A stretch of DNA of 64,000 nucleotides from Flavobacterium petrolei (GTDB taxonomy: Bacteria; Bacteroidota; Bacteroidia; Flavobacteriales; Flavobacteriaceae). Under the pieces are notes generated by a model. It was not told the origin of the DNA and made no database searches. It saw only the letters and a list, made by a program, of their open reading frames with translations. The DNA lies in NCBI RefSeq assembly GCF_003314435.2, contig NZ_QNVY02000006.1, forward strand, positions 62,001-126,000. The letters run 5' to 3'. Below are positions 6,080 to 46,527 of the stretch, piece after piece (position 1 is the stretch's first letter; every line of letters begins with the position of its first letter). The translations under genes and the position numbers were made by a program.

Positions 6080-6769
6080 TTACCTGCAAAATCCTCTATT
6101 TTTGTTGGGATTAATCGGTAAATCCTGGCTTTCTGATTTAAATTTATACAAAGGATTTTTTACTGCCAGTTCCAGCCGTTTTTGGATAATTTTCCAGTTT
6201 TGCTCTTTTTCTTTCAGCATATCTATACCTTCAAAGGTACTAATCTTGTCATATGTATTCAGACCTATGGAAGCCCAGTAGGGATCCTTATCGTATTTTC
6301 TCTGATAGGCTTGTAGGTAGAACTTTAATGGTTCTCGTTCAAGCATAAAGTACATGTCAACAAAATCCTTGTACCTGTCTCCGCTCTGATGAATCGCATG
6401 GAGTTTCATTGCTCCAATATCTTCATTGGAAATCATGCGGACTCCTTCAGCTGTTTCCACGGAATTCAGAAGAGGGTAATTGTGTGTAACAATATCGACT
6501 TTTATATCATCGATGTAGGTAAGAACAGTGTTCGGGAAGAACTGGCTTTCCTTTTCATTTACATCGTAAGTGTCATGCAGATATTTGAGCATCATCTGCG
6601 AATTAAAAGTTTTTGTTGTAAAAAGATCTAGATCCACTGATAAGCGATGTCCCAGTCGTAAGGCTAACGCCGTACCGCCGACCAATATATAGTCTTTCAA
6701 TTTTTCATCTTTCATAAGCCTTTGGAGAAGTTCCCACATCTCCTTGCTAACTGTTTCTTTGTAGAGCAT
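6080..6769 (-). CDS. AbiEii/AbiGii-family nucleotidyltransferase (putative toxin)
   Basis: 229 residues. The nucleotidyltransferase signature GGTALALRLGHRLSVDLDLF lies at residues 31-50, with catalytic carboxylates Asp46 and Asp48. Further on, EDIGAMKLHAI and the downstream DRYKDFVDMYF match the conserved AMKL and RKDFVD blocks of AbiEii proteins. Members of this family act as toxins in type IV-like toxin-antitoxin or abortive-infection modules; some transfer nucleotides to tRNA acceptor ends. Here the gene is first and the small partner (5721-6032) second, opposite to the usual AbiEi-AbiEii order. It is divergent from the mobilisation genes and looks like cargo of the mobile island. Activity is not shown. 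Confidence 0.87.
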   Translation of the reverse strand: MLYKETVSKEMWELLQRLMKDEKLKDYILVGGTALALRLGHRLSVDLDLFTTKTFNSQMMLKYLHDTYDVNEKESQFFPNTVLTYIDDIKVDIVTHNYPLLNSVETAEGVRMISNEDIGAMKLHAIHQSGDRYKDFVDMYFMLEREPLKFYLQAYQRKYDKDPYWASIGLNTYDKISTFEGIDMLKEKEQNWKIIQKRLELAVKNPLYKFKSESQDLPINPNKNRGFCR

Positions 6770-6985
6770 AATTTCACGTTTCTCATGAAATTAATCCCGA
6801 AAGCGAGGCACTCTTAGAAAGGGTCCTGTCGTGGCTTTGTTTGACGGAAGTTGTCCTTAAGGCGAAAATCAACATGCGGAAATAGTAAGCCAAATGCTTC
6901 CATATTCTCCAATATCCAGAGGTCATTACTAATGATAAAGTATATTGGTTTTTAAATTGTTTAAACGAAACCAGTAATAACGGTA
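6770..6985. other. Divergent intergenic region between toxin and mobilisation genes
   Basis: A 7-bp inverted repeat AATTTCA / TGAAATT (6770-6776 and 6786-6792) abuts the toxin start codon and could be an operator for autoregulation. The rest, higher in GC, lies just upstream of the mobilisation gene. In Bacteroidota mobilisable elements oriT is usually located in this position, but I could not identify a nic site by eye. Confidence 0.4.
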
Positions 6986-7417
6986 ATGGAAAGCAACGGC
7001 AAAACCACCCCGCATAAAGGAGGCAGGCATCCCAAGAAAGATCCCGCCGTTCACCGCTATTCTATAAGCCTTAGTGCTGAGGAAAATGCACGATTCCTTT
7101 CTCTCTACGAAGCTTCACGCATGGATGTTATGGCACATTTTATTACGGCATGTATTTTCCAAAAAGCAATTACGAACGTAACGGTTGACAAGGCAACCAT
7201 GGATTACTATATGCGCCTGACTACCCTATTCGGACAGTTCAGGGCTGTAGGAACCAATTATAACCAAGTGGTAAAAATACTGTACCGCAATTTTTCCGAA
7301 AAGAAAGCCGCAGCCTATCTCTATAAATTGGAAAAACAGACAGCAGAAATGGCGGTATTGTGCCAAAAAATCATTCTACTAACTGAAGATTTTGAAGCAA
7401 AACACCTGAAAAAATGA
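6986..7417 (+). CDS. Mobilisation accessory protein (MobA/MobC-like relaxosome component)
   Basis: 143 residues. The basic N-terminus (GGRHPKKDPAVHRYSISLS) followed by a ribbon-helix-helix-like segment (EENARFLSLYEASRM) and a central block VGTNYNQVVKILYRNF match the small accessory mobilisation proteins of Bacteroidota mobile elements, where they are often called MobA. The N-x-NQ-x-x-K motif is typical of MobC-type relaxosome proteins. They bind oriT and help the relaxase nick it. The stop overlaps the relaxase start (ATGA), so translation is coupled. The ATG at 6986 has no Shine-Dalgarno site, as usual in this phylum. Confidence 0.85.
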   Translation: MESNGKTTPHKGGRHPKKDPAVHRYSISLSAEENARFLSLYEASRMDVMAHFITACIFQKAITNVTVDKATMDYYMRLTTLFGQFRAVGTNYNQVVKILYRNFSEKKAAAYLYKLEKQTAEMAVLCQKIILLTEDFEAKHLKK

Positions 7418-8703
7418 TAGCTAAGATAGGAAGAGGAAACAATCTGTATGGCGCATTGGCATACAATCAACTCAAAGTGGAAAAGGAAAATGGGCAGGTT
7501 TTGTATACCAATAAGATAATTGAAACTCCTGATGGCATTTACGCCACTAGTCAACTGTTGCGTTCATTTGAACCGTACCTGCTGGCCAATCGAAAGACTG
7601 AAAAACCAATATTACATATCTCTCTCAATCCTGATCCGAAGGATAAAGTAAGTGATGAACAATTTGAAAAGCTGGCGCAAAAGTATATGCAGAAAATGGG
7701 TTACGCTGAACAGTCTTTTGTGGTATTCAAACATACTGATCTTGAGCGTACCCATATTCATATCGTATCAGTTTGTGTGGATGAAAATGGCAGGAAAATA
7801 TCGGATAAATTTGAAAAAAGGCGTTCGATGGATGTCTGTCGGGAATTGGAAAAACAATTCTGCTTGATATCGGCTATCGAGAAAAAGCAAAATCCACAAA
7901 ATCAAATATTCAAACCCGTTGATTATAAGGCTGGTGACATAAAGAGCCAGATGGCTTCGGTAATCCGTAATTTGCCAAAGTATTACAAATTTGAGGGTTT
8001 CGGCACCTACAATGCCCTGCTTTCCCTTTTCAATATTACAGCCGAAGAAGTCAAGGGTGAATTTAATGGAATCCCAAAACAAGGACTGGTATATTTTGCA
8101 TTAAATGAAAAGGGAGAAAAAGCAAGCAATCCTTTTAAGGCTTCGTTGTTCGGTAAACAGGCAGGATATGTTAATCTTCAACAACACTATGGGAATTCCA
8201 GAGAATTATTGAAAAATGAGCCATCCAAACCTTTGCTTAAGACAACCATTGAGATGTGCTTGCAGACGGCATCGGATGAAAAAGAATTCAAAAAACGGTT
8301 GTTGGAACGAGGTATTAATACCGTTGTAAGACGAAATACGCAAGGCAGAGTTTATGGAATAACCTTTGTTGATCATAGTTCAAAATCCGTGTGGAATGGT
8401 TCGCAATTAGGCAAAAACCTTTCGGCTAACGTTTTCAATGACTGGTGGAATAATGGCACTAAAATAGAGCAGCCTGTACAGGGAAATGGTGTTTCAAAGA
8501 ACAATACGACTATAAATGAAGATGTCAAACAATCACACAAGCTGTTTGACTTTTTGGTTAAGGAAAATATGTCCTATAGCCACGAAGAAAATAACCTTAT
8601 TGAAGTCTTTGGAGGGTTATTATCCATTGGAAAAGCAGAAGACTATGATGAAGAATTATTTGCCAACCAAACGAAAAAGAAAGCCAGACGCAAAAAAAGA
8701 TAG
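7414..8703 (+). CDS. Relaxase/mobilisation nuclease (MobB-like, MOBP type)
   Basis: 429 residues. The N-terminus MIAKIGRGNNLYGALAYNQ matches Bacteroidota relaxases and contains candidate catalytic tyrosines Tyr12 and Tyr17. The metal-binding motif is ERTHIHIVS, with His114 and His116. The protein would nick the island at oriT and pilot the single strand during conjugation. No conjugation machinery (Tra genes) or coupling protein is in the window, so the element would need a helper. The C-terminus is Lys/Arg-rich (TKKKARRKKR). The start overlaps the accessory gene by four bases. Confidence 0.92.
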   Translation: MIAKIGRGNNLYGALAYNQLKVEKENGQVLYTNKIIETPDGIYATSQLLRSFEPYLLANRKTEKPILHISLNPDPKDKVSDEQFEKLAQKYMQKMGYAEQSFVVFKHTDLERTHIHIVSVCVDENGRKISDKFEKRRSMDVCRELEKQFCLISAIEKKQNPQNQIFKPVDYKAGDIKSQMASVIRNLPKYYKFEGFGTYNALLSLFNITAEEVKGEFNGIPKQGLVYFALNEKGEKASNPFKASLFGKQAGYVNLQQHYGNSRELLKNEPSKPLLKTTIEMCLQTASDEKEFKKRLLERGINTVVRRNTQGRVYGITFVDHSSKSVWNGSQLGKNLSANVFNDWWNNGTKIEQPVQGNGVSKNNTTINEDVKQSHKLFDFLVKENMSYSHEENNLIEVFGGLLSIGKAEDYDEELFANQTKKKARRKKR

Positions 8704-40724: not shown

Positions 40725-40744
40725 GGTGTAGTTGTATGTTTACG

Positions 40745-40776
40745 CAAAGATACTTTATAATGATTGAATCCGAAAA
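40745..40776 (-). promoter_or_regulatory. Probable promoter of purKE
   Basis: Minus-strand TATCTTTG (40752-40745) matches the -7 consensus exactly. About 19 bases upstream TTTTCG (40776-40771) is an imperfect -33 box. Confidence 0.6.
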
Positions 40777-41121
40777 TTCAATTTATATTCTTGATTTACT
40801 CTTGAGTAGTCATTAGAAGGTAAAAAATAAAATGTTTTACTGGCATTTGCAATCAGGTATTTTTACGTGGTTTTGCGTAAAATTAAAATTGTTTATTTGC
40901 AGCATATCTTATAGTAATCATGTATTGTAAACATCTTTATGTTGTTGAAATCTGTTAAAAAAAACTAGTACAAGCAATAATGCAAAGTGATGTACTAAGT
41001 TTTTTATGAATTTGTTATATTATTATTTCACAATACTTTATACAGATTTTTTATTATAATATTTTGTTAATATTTTAAAAAAAAGTTGTTATTTCGCACT
41101 CAAATTAATGAACACAAACTT
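40777..41121. other. AT-rich intergenic region before the giant surface-protein gene
   Basis: About 345 bases of very AT-rich sequence between divergent purK and the surface protein. I see no ORF or RNA gene. TATTTTGTTAATATTTT near 41060-41080 could belong to a promoter, but it lacks an exact -7 match. Confidence 0.4.
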
Positions 41122-44100
41122 ATGAAAAAAAACTACTTTCTCCTAATTATGGCGTTTTATTGTCTTTTTAGTGTGACACAAAAATCGTATGGGCAATTGA
41201 GTTTTGACTCAACACCTGTGACTACTGCTACGGTGGGAGCACCTTACACTTATTCCTCATTTGCTTCAGACGGAACTAGTAATGGACCAGCAATGACTTG
41301 TTCTACAAAGCCAGCTTGGATGAGTTTTGCCGCGACTGGTTCTACATCAATGCAAACTTTTGGTCCAACTATTTCAGCTCCTGGGGGTATTGCTGGAGAT
41401 GCTGATGGCAATACCTATGTAGTTAGTAGTGACGGAACTGGGAGGTTTATCTATAAAATAGCGCCTGACGGAACTACTAATACAAGCTGGGCAGATGCAG
41501 ATAATGGACTCATTTATGGAATGAATGTGGATGGTGGGTATCTTTATGTTTCGTATTATTATAATGATGTAACGGGTACTTCCTGTATAAAGAAAATTAG
41601 TTTGGCTGATCCGGGTGCCGGACAAACGCTGGTTTATGCTCTTAATACTACTTCTGGTTTGCTATCGCTTGTTTTTAGAGGGGGATATATTTATTGTGCT
41701 GCTTATAACCAAGGCCAAATTTTAAAAATTGACCCTGTCACAGCAACTGCAACGGAGTATGTTTCCGTACCAAATCCTTGGGGATTGGGTTTTGATACTA
41801 GTGGTAAATTATTTATTGCAAGCTTTGGATCAGGCACCATTTCCACTTATGACGGTGCTACTTTGAGCGTTGTGAAATCTGGTTTGGCAAGTCCAACGGA
41901 TGTGAAAATTGATGCAAACGGAAATGTCTATGTTTCTTTTTATTCGAATGGAGGTATAATAAAGTATAATGCAGGACTAACAACGGAAATTATCTTAGTG
42001 CCTACGGACGGTATAAATCAGATATTGGGAATGAATTTGACTCCTACAGGGTCATTGGTGTTTGGTATTTATAATCAAAATAAATGTGCTCGTTTAGGAA
42101 CTGGAGCGGTGATTTCGGGTACGCCTGCACTGTCAGATATTGGTACTCATAATGTAACGATAAGAGCAACTAGTGCAACTGAGACTGTTGATCAGAGTTT
42201 TGTTGTTACGGTGCAAGGTCCACCAACACTAAGTGGTTTTCCAGATTTAAATGGAGCAGTAGGTACAAACTTGACACTTACAGATCCTACTTCTAACAGT
42301 GCAGGTGCTTTTACCTATACCAGTTCAAATCCCTCTACCGCAACAATAAGTGGTAATACGGTAACGCCTGTTGCGGCTGGGACAACAACAATAACGGCAA
42401 CTCAGGCTGCATCTGGAAATTATACACAAGGAACAATAACTAGTGTGCTTACTGTCACCACTTGTGCCACTCCTGTTGCCATTACAAAAGACATTATAGT
42501 TCAACTGGATGCTGCAGGAAATGCCACAATTGTTGCATCTGACGTGGACAATGGCTCGACTTATGCATGTGGAATTGCAAGCATGAGTTTAGATAAAACA
42601 ACTTTCTCTTGTACTGATGTTGGTGTAAATACAGTAATCTTAAAAGTTACTGATGTTAATGGAAACGTTGCTAATCAATCTGCGACAGTTACAGTTGAAG
42701 ACAAGATTGCTCCGATATTTACAAGTATTCCAGAAATAAATGTGAATACTGATTTGAACACATGTGGTGTTGTAGTTACTTACACAAAGCCTTTAGTTAA
42801 TGACAATTGTGCGGGTAATTCTAATGTATTGTTGATTTGGGATGAAATAAACTCAAATACAACAAGTTTACAGAACGCATTGATTGCAGCAGGAAATACA
42901 GTAACACTTAGTGCTACCTCAGAGACTGCATACAATGGTACGAATCCTGCTTTAACAGGTTTTGATGCTGTTGTTCATTTAAATGGGACAACTTTTGGAA
43001 CTGCCATGCCAATAGGAGGTCAAAACGCAATACTTGATTTTGTTTTAAATCAAGGTAAAACATATGTTACAGATGAATGGTCCGCTTATGAGGCCGATGA
43101 TGCTGGTACAATGGCAGCGATGAAAGAGATAATTGTTTTGCAAAGAAATAGTGGTTTTACAGCTTCAACTACTTATACGCAGGTTTCTTCTCAAGCATCA
43201 CATCCTATTCTTGCTGGCGTTCCTACTTCATTTAATTTGCCTGTAGCAGATGGAAATATTGGATTTGCAAGAGTGTATTCTAGCAATCAACCTATAGTAT
43301 TGATGACTTCATCTCAAGGAGATGCTGTTGCTGTTAGGGAGTTTTCAAATGGAGGAAAGGCGATTGGTTTTCAAAACGCAGGAAATTACGATGGTTCAAC
43401 AGTCTTGTCAGATGTGAACATTCAAAAATTGTACAGTAATGCAGTTAGTTATGGTGCAATTGTACAATTGACTCAAACAGCAGGTTTAGTATCAGGTTCT
43501 CTTTTTCCTGTGGGCACAACAACAAATACATTTACAGCTACAGATGGAAGTGGCAATATGTCAACAACAAGTTTTGATGTGGTTGTAACAGATAATCAAC
43601 TTCCTATTATAGCTTCAAATGGGGATATAAATGTAAACACAGATTTAGATACTTGTGGCGCTACAGTTGTTGTTTCGGCAACAGCAACAGATAATTGTAC
43701 TGTTGGATTACCAACGGGAGTTCGTAGTGACGGTTTATCGCTAGATGCACTTTATCCAGTAGGTACAACCACTATTAAATGGAATGTTTCAGATGCTAAC
43801 AGCAATGCAGCAGTGGAGGTTATTCAAACCGTAGTTGTAACGGATAATCAAGTTCCAGTTATTGTTTCCAATGGAGATAAAAATGTTAATACAGATGTAA
43901 ATGTTTGTGGAGCGGCAGTAGTTGTTTCTGCAACAGCGACAGATAATTGTACAGTTGGAGCGCCAGCAGGAGTTCGTAGCGATGCTTTGGCATTGAATGC
44001 AATTTATCCAGTGGGAACAACAACTATTAAATGGAATGTTTCAGATGCTAACAGTAATGCAGCAGTTGAAGTTATTCAAACCGTAGTTGTAACGGATAAT

Positions 44101-46527
44101 CAAGTTCCAGTTATTGTTTCCAATGGAGATAAAAATGTTAATACAGATGTAAATGTTTGTGGAGCGGCAATAGCTGTTTCTGCAACAGCGACAGATAATT
44201 GTACAGTTGGAGCGCCAGCAGGAGTTCGTAGTGATGCTTTGGCATTGAATGCAATTTATCCAGTTGGAACAACAACTATTAAATGGAATGTTTCAGATGC
44301 TAACAGCAATGCAGCAGTTGAAGTTATTCAAACAATAGTTGTAACGGACAATCAAGTTCCAGTTATTGTTTCCAATGGAGATAAAAACGTTAATACAGAT
44401 GTAAATGTTTGTGGAGCGGCAGTAGTTGTTTCTGCAACAGCGACAGATAATTGTACAGTTGTATCGCCAACTGGGTTAAGAAGTGACGGAGAATTACTTT
44501 CGGCAGTTTATCCGGTAGGGATCACAGCGATTACTTGGAATGTAAGTGATAGTAATGGAAATGACGCGGTAGCAATAATTCAAACAGTAACCGTGGTTGA
44601 TAATGAAGCTCCAGTTGTTGTTACTAAAAATATCACAGTTCAACTAGATGCTTTAGGGAATGCTACAATTGCTGCTGCTGACGTAAACGATGGTTCAATG
44701 GATGCTTGTGGAATAGATTTATTAGAATTAGACATAACTTCATTTACTTGCGCCAATATTGGTCTAAATACAGTAACATTAAAAGTTACGGACGTTAATG
44801 GAAATGTTACTTCAAAAACAGCAGTAATTACAGTTGAAGATAAGATTGCTCCAGTTGTAGTTACTAAAAACACTACGATTCAATTGAATGCTGCAGGAAC
44901 TGCTTCGATAGTTGTTGCAGATGTGAACAATGGTTCAACAGATAATTGCGGAATCAGTTTAGTAGAGTTGGATAAAATGGCATTCACATGTGCTAATGTT
45001 GGGGCAAACACAGTAACATTGAAAGTTACAGATAACAACGGAAATATCGCTACTCAAACAGCTATTATAACTGTTGAAGATAAGATTGCTCCAGTTGTAG
45101 TTACTAAAAACACTACGATTCAATTGAATGCTGCAGGAACTGCTTCGATAGTTGTTGCAGATGTGAACAATGGTTCAACAGATAATTGCGGAATTAGTTT
45201 AGTAGAGTTGGATAAAATGGCATTCACATGTGATAATGTTGGAGCAAACACAGTAACATTGAAAGTTACAGATAACAACGGAAATATCGCTACTCAAACA
45301 GCTATTATAATTGTTGAAGATAAGACTGCTCCAGTTGTAGTTACTAAAAACATTACGATTCAATTGAATGCTACAGGAACTGCTTCGGTAGTAGCTGCTG
45401 ATATCAATAATGGTTCAACGGATGCTTGTGGAATCAGCTTATTAGAATTAGATAAAAGTACATTTACTTGCGCTAATATTGGACTAAATACAGTAACATT
45501 AAAAGTTACTGATGTTAATGGAAATGTTACTTCAAAAACAGCAGTAGTTGCAGTTGAAGATAAAATGGCTCCAGTTGTAGTTGCTAAAAATAAGACTATT
45601 CAATTGAATGCAGCAGGAACAGCTTCGATAGTTGTTGCAGATGTAAACAATGGTTCAACAGATAATTGCGGAATCAGTTTAGTAGAGTTGGATAAAATGG
45701 CATTCACATGTGCTAATGTTGGAGCAAACACAGTAACATTGAAAGTTACAGATAATAACGGAAATGTTGCTACTCAAACAGCTGTTATAACTGTTGAAGA
45801 TAAAATTGCACCAGTGGTAATTACAAAAAACATCACTGTTCAACTTGATGCATCTTCAAATATATTGATAGCTGCTGCCGATGTAAATAATGGTTCAACT
45901 GATAATTGTGGAATCAGTTTATTAGAACTCAATAAAGCATTATTCAGTTGTGCCAATGTAGGTGAGAATGTCGTTACTCTAAAAGTAACAGATAATAGTG
46001 GAAATGTTACTACTAGAACAGCTATTGTAACAATTGTTAATAGTCAGCCTAATTTAATTAGAAAACATTTTGACGATGTTATTTTCTTTGATAATAGTTC
46101 TAAAGCCTTCGTTGCTTACAGTTGGTATAAAAATGGAGTTTTAGTATCTAGTCAAACAGCTCAATATTTTAAAGATAGTGGAGTTCTTAATGGCACCTAT
46201 TATGCTAAAGCTACAAAAATAGACGGAACTGTTGTTACAACATGTCCTTTGACGTTTTCTGCATCAATAGTAGATGAATATTTAAAGATTGCACCTAATC
46301 CGGTTAAGAGTAATGCAAGCTACCAAATCCTTACTAATGTAGATTCAGTTAAGTTGCAAAATGCTCGTATTACAGTTTTTAATATACTGGGAGTACTAGT
46401 GAACGATAAAATAGTTGATGGCATAACAACGGATATGATTGCGCCAAATACGGAAGGGATTTATGTGGTAAGAATGACCTTAACAAATGGCAAATACTTT
46501 ACAAAAAACCTTTTGGTTAAAAATTAG
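41122..46527 (+). CDS. Giant T9SS-exported surface protein with NHL-like propeller, HYR-type repeats and an inserted GATase-like domain
   Basis: 1801 residues from the ATG at 41122 (MKKNYFLLIMAFYCLFSV, signal peptide ending near residue 25). Approximate order: propeller-like region 86-335 (GIAGDADGNTYVVSSDGTG, DVKIDANGNVYVSFY); Ig-like BIG2 module 366-446; one HYR-like module 448-527; a HYR module at 531-823 split by a ~210-residue GATase/ThuA-like segment (568-779, starting NVLLIWDEINSN); four 84-residue modules (TDNQVPVIVSNGDKNVNTD); six ~80-residue modules (DKIAPVVVTKNTTIQLNAAG); an Ig-like linker; and a C-terminal T9SS type A sorting domain (KIAPNPVKSN to GKYFTKNLLVKN). It is probably a surface-anchored adhesin or extracellular binding protein. 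It is followed by an outer-membrane protein gene. Confidence 0.92.
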   Translation: MKKNYFLLIMAFYCLFSVTQKSYGQLSFDSTPVTTATVGAPYTYSSFASDGTSNGPAMTCSTKPAWMSFAATGSTSMQTFGPTISAPGGIAGDADGNTYVVSSDGTGRFIYKIAPDGTTNTSWADADNGLIYGMNVDGGYLYVSYYYNDVTGTSCIKKISLADPGAGQTLVYALNTTSGLLSLVFRGGYIYCAAYNQGQILKIDPVTATATEYVSVPNPWGLGFDTSGKLFIASFGSGTISTYDGATLSVVKSGLASPTDVKIDANGNVYVSFYSNGGIIKYNAGLTTEIILVPTDGINQILGMNLTPTGSLVFGIYNQNKCARLGTGAVISGTPALSDIGTHNVTIRATSATETVDQSFVVTVQGPPTLSGFPDLNGAVGTNLTLTDPTSNSAGAFTYTSSNPSTATISGNTVTPVAAGTTTITATQAASGNYTQGTITSVLTVTTCATPVAITKDIIVQLDAAGNATIVASDVDNGSTYACGIASMSLDKTTFSCTDVGVNTVILKVTDVNGNVANQSATVTVEDKIAPIFTSIPEINVNTDLNTCGVVVTYTKPLVNDNCAGNSNVLLIWDEINSNTTSLQNALIAAGNTVTLSATSETAYNGTNPALTGFDAVVHLNGTTFGTAMPIGGQNAILDFVLNQGKTYVTDEWSAYEADDAGTMAAMKEIIVLQRNSGFTASTTYTQVSSQASHPILAGVPTSFNLPVADGNIGFARVYSSNQPIVLMTSSQGDAVAVREFSNGGKAIGFQNAGNYDGSTVLSDVNIQKLYSNAVSYGAIVQLTQTAGLVSGSLFPVGTTTNTFTATDGSGNMSTTSFDVVVTDNQLPIIASNGDINVNTDLDTCGATVVVSATATDNCTVGLPTGVRSDGLSLDALYPVGTTTIKWNVSDANSNAAVEVIQTVVVTDNQVPVIVSNGDKNVNTDVNVCGAAVVVSATATDNCTVGAPAGVRSDALALNAIYPVGTTTIKWNVSDANSNAAVEVIQTVVVTDNQVPVIVSNGDKNVNTDVNVCGAAIAVSATATDNCTVGAPAGVRSDALALNAIYPVGTTTIKWNVSDANSNAAVEVIQTIVVTDNQVPVIVSNGDKNVNTDVNVCGAAVVVSATATDNCTVVSPTGLRSDGELLSAVYPVGITAITWNVSDSNGNDAVAIIQTVTVVDNEAPVVVTKNITVQLDALGNATIAAADVNDGSMDACGIDLLELDITSFTCANIGLNTVTLKVTDVNGNVTSKTAVITVEDKIAPVVVTKNTTIQLNAAGTASIVVADVNNGSTDNCGISLVELDKMAFTCANVGANTVTLKVTDNNGNIATQTAIITVEDKIAPVVVTKNTTIQLNAAGTASIVVADVNNGSTDNCGISLVELDKMAFTCDNVGANTVTLKVTDNNGNIATQTAIIIVEDKTAPVVVTKNITIQLNATGTASVVAADINNGSTDACGISLLELDKSTFTCANIGLNTVTLKVTDVNGNVTSKTAVVAVEDKMAPVVVAKNKTIQLNAAGTASIVVADVNNGSTDNCGISLVELDKMAFTCANVGANTVTLKVTDNNGNVATQTAVITVEDKIAPVVITKNITVQLDASSNILIAAADVNNGSTDNCGISLLELNKALFSCANVGENVVTLKVTDNSGNVTTRTAIVTIVNSQPNLIRKHFDDVIFFDNSSKAFVAYSWYKNGVLVSSQTAQYFKDSGVLNGTYYAKATKIDGTVVTTCPLTFSASIVDEYLKIAPNPVKSNASYQILTNVDSVKLQNARITVFNILGVLVNDKIVDGITTDMIAPNTEGIYVVRMTLTNGKYFTKNLLVKN
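43590..44595 (+). repeat. Four 252-bp coding repeats (84-residue HYR-type modules)
   Basis: The phrase AACGGATAATCAAGTTCCAG recurs at an exact 252-base period from about 43839. The second and third units are nearly identical; the first and fourth have diverged at their edges. The repeats lie inside the surface-protein gene. Confidence 0.9.
44596..46035 (+). repeat. Six ~240-bp coding repeats (80-residue modules)
   Basis: GTTGAAGATAAGATTGCTCC-like starts recur at an exact 240-base period at 44833, 45073, 45313, 45553 and 45793, preceded by a first unit at 44596. Units at 44833 and 45073 are identical over long stretches, pointing to recent duplication or gene conversion. Confidence 0.92.

Follow-up and report, generated by a model that had tools for sequence, protein, structure and literature searches.

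The locus analysed here raises the question of how a whole domain comes to lie inside another domain of a giant secreted protein, and of what such an arrangement may serve. HYR domains are Ig/cadherin-like beta-sandwich repeats from which, in Bacteroidota, the stalks of giant secreted proteins are built, and the module was reportedly described by Callebaut et al. 2000. In the window, i.e. the whole stretch of 64,000 nucleotides from Flavobacterium petrolei that was analysed, one such repeat of an 1801-residue protein is opened at a single loop (Table 1). Our study suggests that this split stalk repeat probably serves to hold binding domains which can be exchanged. The reading is built on the split itself, the recurrence of the insertion site, the variety of the guests, the absence of cysteine from the insert and an abrupt step in divergence at its edge.

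Table 1. Features of the giant gene in the window, with the basis of each assignment
Feature	Position	Strand	Basis
Giant secreted multidomain protein, 1801 aa	41122..46527	+	ORF; ATG at 41122, alternative TTG start at 41086
Probable signal peptide, MKKNYFLLIMAFYCLFSVTQKSYGQ	41122..41196	+	Sequence reading
N-terminal region with weak NHL-type and beta-sheet matches	41197..42462	+	Pfam
LapB/HYR-like repeat preceding the split HYR	42463..42711	+	Sequence reading; such repeats match NF033932
Split HYR, N-half, 33 aa ending in DNC, PIFTSIPEINVNTDLNTCGVVVTYTKPLVNDNC	42712..42810	+	Half-model, 20.7 bits
Linker AGNS, 4 residues, from HYR N-half to insert	42811..42822	+	
Inserted 214-aa domain, cysteine-free, Rossmann-like by pattern, NVLLIWDEINSN...SNAVSYGAIV	42823..43464	+	Alignment; 12 copies
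Low-divergence tract against F. sinopsychrotolerans and F. limicola	42823..43647	+	Sharp 5' edge at the insert's first base
Split HYR, C-half, QLTQTAGLVSGSLFPVGTTTNTF...VVVTD	43465..43593	+	PF02494 positions 47-81; half-model, 53.9 bits
Further HYR and LapB-like repeats	43594..46041	+	NF033932 stretches; sequence reading
Probable T9SS type A sorting domain	46267..46524	+	TIGR04183

The complete protein scored 42.4 bits against PF02494 (Pfam cut-off 21.7), and the four PF02494 matches found in its own genome at E <= 0.1 are all located within this reading frame. Moreover, NF033932 (NCBIfam) was matched by seven stretches across the protein. In the N-terminal region the Pfam matches to NHL (E 0.13) and HL_N-beta (E 0.021) were both below the cut-offs. 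The C-terminus scored 21.3 bits with TIGR04183 (E 2e-4), which is below the cut-off of 23; the protein is likely to be a T9SS type A cargo despite this sub-cut-off score, and a surface location via T9SS may be presumed from the same score. The signal peptide and the names given to the neighbouring genes (purK-like, CorC-like, hpt, adk and AraC-type) are assignments made by reading of the sequence. The purK-like gene is the upstream neighbour of the giant gene. In the corresponding loci of F. sinopsychrotolerans (L003) and F. limicola (L004), a gene resembling an AraC-type regulator was seen between these two genes (L003:2241-3305 and L004:2240-3304), and the same interval of the window, 40725-41121, is too short for such a gene. 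The giant proteins encoded at the same gene position in these loci (L003:4024-8985 and L004:4024-7674) have a quite different N-terminus, which itself reads as another Rossmann/GATase-like domain; Pfam gave no match for the N-terminal stretch of L003.

A domain-in-domain insertion at a HYR loop had been proposed in the preliminary description at 42715-43590, and these coordinates proved correct within a few bases. The interruption of the HYR domain by the 214-residue insert at one loop is confirmed, as both flanks were scored by half-models built from the intact HYRs of relatives (N-half over positions 6-33, with 217 aa between the two halves) and the insert lies at the same place in 12/12 copies. 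In the Pfam search of the split module the C-half alone scored, with 33.3 bits against the cut-off of 21.7. C20 and the DNC motif of the N-half were found to be invariant in seven aligned sequences, and both cysteines of this pair are kept in all 12 copies. The outer cysteine pair (CP at the start and CSF near the end), which is common in flavobacterial HYRs and not defining for them, was present in none of the 12 cassette copies versus 78 % of 597 intact HYRs. The split is more than a chance arrangement, because it recurs in every copy of the insert and because a survey of the gap between HYR halves gave a bimodal distribution.

This survey covered 60 regions of HYR-rich Flavobacteriaceae genes along with the window and loci L003-L007. 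The top PF02494 matches listed supplied 59 of the 60 regions, and L045, with four inserts, was chosen because the window's insert occurs in it; the window and L003-L007 were included for the same reason, and they supply 6 of the 57 long gaps. From the end of DNC to the C-half, 571 HYRs showed a gap of -6 to 12 aa and 57 showed 77-279 aa, with none at 13-74 aa, although several of the 57 are weak (for example L052, L080 and one of 77 aa in L063). The remaining 51 long gaps, all within the 60 regions, likewise span 77-279 aa. C-type lectins, laminin-G domains, glycine-rich segments (8/57 by motif) and unnamed domains were all found in this loop.

Further, a sliding split-point scan of the 60 regions, leaving aside the window and L003-L007, yielded its highest counts at columns 33 and 36, with 24 clean splits each (from 16 and 15 loci, respectively, and largely in the same domains). 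The counts elsewhere were 0-1 at columns 12-27, 5 at column 30, 10 at column 39, 7 at column 42 and 2-8 at columns 45-69; at columns 57 and 60, where 7 and 8 splits were counted, the 12 rows listed of these 15 were all DNC-loop inserts already present in the gap survey. The scan rejects bridged complete repeats, and when this filter was omitted 4-32 apparent splits were obtained at every position. Nineteen of the 57 inserts, chosen to differ from one another, were scanned with Pfam. The cut-off was passed by five, all of lectin type (Lectin_C in L045, L102 and L103, laminin-G/ConA in L102 and SUEL lectin in L092), four gave sub-threshold matches and ten gave no match, so that to speak of a lectin slot is to generalise from a minority (5/19) of the scanned inserts.

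When the sampling was done by C-type lectin, 9 of 139 genomes yielded 16 such domains, of which 11 were located between HYR halves by the test used; two proteins contribute two each, and four of the 11 (L177, L187, L188 and L190) were already part of the HYR survey. Among the other five, the one in L183 was accompanied by a C-half only and four by no HYR. The insertion had been considered unusual at first, a view which could not be maintained, since the survey, the split scan and the lectin sampling show such inserts to be common in HYR-rich Flavobacteriaceae. The shells which carry inserts also resemble one another: among their five nearest shells from other loci, 38 % carried inserts as well, versus 5.5 % for intact shells and a base rate of 9.4 %, with inserts of the same kind excluded except among the unnamed ones. 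The share was 30 % for carriers without the window's insert family, 17 % for unnamed inserts and 0 for the three SUEL carriers. This likeness may partly reflect the HYR type which is best seen by the half-models.

The insert family itself is rare, with a narrow and patchy spread over Flavobacteriaceae and the Pontibacter family. A pattern scan of one genome per species in 84,980 species returned five loci, namely two from close Flavobacterium, one from F. kayseriense and two from Pontibacter. In the genome searches, each counting the window's own genome, carriers were found in 2/397 genomes of the family, 3/395 of the phylum and 1/199 of the genus. In the Pontibacter family 7/200 genomes carried the insert; a weak eighth match (L175), which reads as a TonB-dependent receptor, was rejected as false. 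No relative of the insert was found in the viral contigs, phages and plasmids searched. In total 12 distinct copies are available including that of the window, and in all the 12 loci supplied the insert is preceded by DNC and followed by the Q..GL motif, as a copy was required to be; every true copy found was inside a HYR. A second Rossmann-like insert was read in the same HYR loop at L064:7624-8274 (+), and it occurs in 1/249 genomes, its own.

In the preliminary description the insert was compared to a GATase/ThuA-like domain, and this comparison stands in so far as a Rossmann-like fold of this type is plausible by pattern and length. The start pattern is collinear with that of the ThuA/class I GATase-like domains (PF06283 and relatives), with 68 columns paired by hhalign, the length of about 210 aa agrees, and GG...GF and HP motifs can be recognised by eye. 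On the other hand, the insert differs from these domains in having no significant score, in lacking cysteine and in lying always inside a HYR. Pfam gave no match at E <= 1 for the window's insert and NCBIfam gave none either; for seven insert members Pfam returned two isolated matches at chance level (E 0.076 and 0.1) and no GATase-like family at E <= 10. No significant relative was found in the PDB (best E 0.81 and 0.53). In hhalign ThuA came second among 30 targets, behind an unrelated control, in a test of low power, as is marked by the 0.2 % obtained for ThuA versus DUF4350 themselves (the ThuA profile comprised 29 of 30 sequences fetched, one with a cut locus being dropped, and the DUF4350 profile 30). 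As the insert is free of cysteine in 12/12 copies, a catalytic class I glutaminase, which depends on a Cys nucleophile, is ruled out.

Structure prediction of residues 531-823 (numbered from the ATG start; window 42712-43590) had been suggested as a check on the split HYR fold and the Rossmann-like insert, and the models obtained were of low confidence. Mean pLDDT was 48.5 in the AlphaFold model of shell plus insert and 39.8 in that of the insert alone, each made from six sequences. In the model of shell plus insert, residues 1-30 average 62-79 by tens, residues 31-40 average 51 and residues 251-296 average 73-87. Neither model found a match in Foldseek at E <= 0.001. In VIA-align, 42 of 50 rows for shell plus insert span from residue 1 to 293-296 with 70-83 residues aligned, both shell halves being matched there by a single beta-sandwich domain (cadherin, PKD, Fn3 and similar, judged by title). 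The remaining 8 rows begin at residue 37-38, which is within three residues of the insert's edge, and match Rossmann- or flavodoxin-like chains with Z of 5.1-5.8. All these Z values are below 8, a range in which a common arrangement may be the sole meaning. The pairing of both HYR halves in one beta-sandwich is thus weakly suggested by the models, and it is better supported than the fold of the insert. For the insert model the best Z was 5.5 and covered residues 2-62 only, in a low-confidence model, and no chain titled ThuA or GATase was among the matches listed.

The proposed mechanism may be described as follows. The loop that leads from the DNC motif to the strand beginning with TQTAGL would accept whole domains while the sandwich is left unbroken, and the guest domain would project sideways from the HYR stalk. 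In the window the guest would be a cysteine-free, probably Rossmann-like domain. Ligand binding is its most likely role, because the guests which can be named at the same site in relatives are of lectin type, and the ligand may perhaps be a carbohydrate or another surface molecule. Over evolutionary time the guests would have been swapped, and in at least one case the edge of a recombination would fall on the HYR/insert junction.

The last step can be examined in the comparison with L003 and L004, where the giant gene has the same position and its N-terminal region (41197-42462 in the window) is not similar by blastn. The collinear blastn alignment begins at 42592. Up to 42822 it contains 53 (L003) and 55 (L004) mismatches in 231 bases, and from 42823 to 43464 it contains 12 and 18 in 642 bases. 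In either comparison the best split point was 42823, the base with which the insert begins, with a maximum z of 10.5 (L003) and 9.9 (L004), and the largest z among 200 shuffles was 4.1 and 4.3, respectively; as L003 and L004 are mutually close, the two comparisons are not independent and represent one event seen twice. The 3' edge of the low-divergence tract is gradual, at about 43648-43714, and a further stretch nearly identical to L003 was found at 44902-45033. The dS of the insert is 0.045 (L003) and 0.048 (L004), or 0.06 when the linker is counted. These values are far below those of the flanking genes, for which the purK-like gene gave 0.29 and 0.32 and the CorC-like gene 0.31, and therefore a recent exchange is indicated. 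The HYR N-half has a dS of about 0.8, and for the C-half against L004 the dN of 0.09 exceeds the dS of 0.05, on 10 differences. We prefer to interpret the step as the trace of a recent exchange or fusion whose 5' edge lies at the HYR/insert junction; it was seen in one lineage, and exchange as a repeated process would be an extension of this reading.

A rather doubtful, though not negligible, alternative is that no guest was exchanged at all, and that the flanking half-HYR is a diverged paralogous repeat, the insert and everything downstream having arrived jointly with the gene's C-terminal portion. Such a history would agree with the continuation of the low-divergence tract past the insert and through the C-half to about 43650, and with the C-terminal tail of the giant gene, whose dS of 0.18 is also below that of the neighbour genes. 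The upstream N-termini are dissimilar, and a single fusion of two genes would produce a step as well. Moreover, two close pairs showed no step: dS in the N-half, insert and C-half was 0.04, 0.18 and 0.06 for L077/L078 and 0.37, 0.22 and 0.27 for L065/L079. However, plain vertical descent predicts an insert dS near 0.3 instead of 0.045, and in each comparison the best split coincides with the very start of the insert. A fusion at 42823 would itself be a recombination at the junction, so that this history differs from guest exchange mainly in the frequency of the events.

The function of the guest can also be explained differently. It is unlikely that the insert is an enzyme, namely a hydrolase of GATase/ThuA-like fold which uses non-cysteine residues and is displayed on the stalk. 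An active site would fit the 77 of 218 positions (linker included) that are invariant in 12 sequences, many of which are polar (D11, E38, H56, N58, E89, E94, H131, R176 and D201 among them), but in a family this shallow the invariance may equally be due to a constraint on fold or on ligand. The lack of cysteine in 12/12 copies, the lack of any significant match to an enzyme family and the lectin type of the named guests at the same HYR site also argue against an enzyme. Still less probable is a mere spacer or structural element which widens or stiffens the stalk and whose identity is irrelevant. The occurrence of very different inserts of 77-279 aa in the same loop, including the glycine-rich ones with no evident binding role, is what a spacer would lead one to expect. 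Against it, the window's insert is 62-67 % identical to the Pontibacter-family copies and the HYR N-half only 39-52 %, although the C-half, with 60-73 %, is not exceeded. Further, dN/dS of the insert is below 1 (0.011/0.045, about 0.25, for L003 and 0.023/0.048, about 0.47, for L004), on few substitutions. A holder for binding domains hence remains our preferred reading of the split repeat. As a more tentative extension, which we consider possible and somewhat short of even odds, HYR repeats of giant surface proteins in Bacteroidota may serve as a general cassette holder with one loop open to lectins and other binding domains, in which lineages swap guests by recombination at the loop junction and so alter the specificity of the adhesin while the stalk stays constant; the insert would then be the founding member of a Rossmann-type binding family confined to HYR.

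The best VIA-align row for shell plus insert was that of the ligand-binding region of SraP from Staphylococcus (4m00; Z 6.9, 77 residues aligned, rmsd 2.7, 31 % identity), a repeat of which matches the two shell halves by structure only. In SraP the lectin module reportedly precedes the repeats and is not placed within one, and this would distinguish it from the window protein. With the HYR module in general (PF02494) the window repeat shares both flanks, which are HYR by model and motif, and a sandwich indicated by weak structural matches; it differs in being opened. The usual HYR module is uninterrupted and about 75 aa long in HycP of Clostridium cellulolyticum, according to the available part of its description (PMC3723904). 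The same part of that source describes HycP as a secreted or membrane protein with a C-terminal CBM3 and 23 HYR modules forming most of the rest, and it makes no mention of a domain placed within a HYR (PMC3723904). HycP is similar to the window protein as a secreted protein rich in HYR modules, to which in HycP a carbohydrate-binding module is added.

In the portion of the openly accessible journal literature that was searched, no account of a domain insertion into HYR was found. The HYR module and insertion into loops are already known as such; what appears to be new is the recurrent mounting loop of HYR with its presumably exchangeable guests and the guest family of the window, which defines an unnamed domain family. 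Giant Bacteroidota proteins look like strings of repeats, and domains held in their loops are easily overlooked, as in the present case, where Pfam detects half of the split HYR and leaves the insert unnamed. If the mounting loop is indeed common, it would show where the binding parts of giant proteins are to be sought and would suggest a route for quick change of binding specificity. It would also offer a natural frame to display a chosen domain on a stalk.

Some further arrangements were seen in the surveyed loci. SUEL lectin inserts are present at L092:11927-12214 (-), which was tested with Pfam, and by motif at L093:8531-8827 (+) and L102:17892-18191 (-); on reading, the repeats that hold these three are LapB-like sister repeats, in which the insertion point differs slightly. 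Seven split HYRs, six strong and one weak, occur in a single giant protein, L102:3414-11609 (-), and by motif their inserts fall into four kinds or more (laminin-G-like, C-type lectin and two unnamed). In L063, two insert copies in LapB-like repeats (6368-6868 and 7340-7840, +) have a dS of 0.07 between them, and the surrounding halves have 0.27 and 0.20; the likeness of these copies hints at gene conversion.
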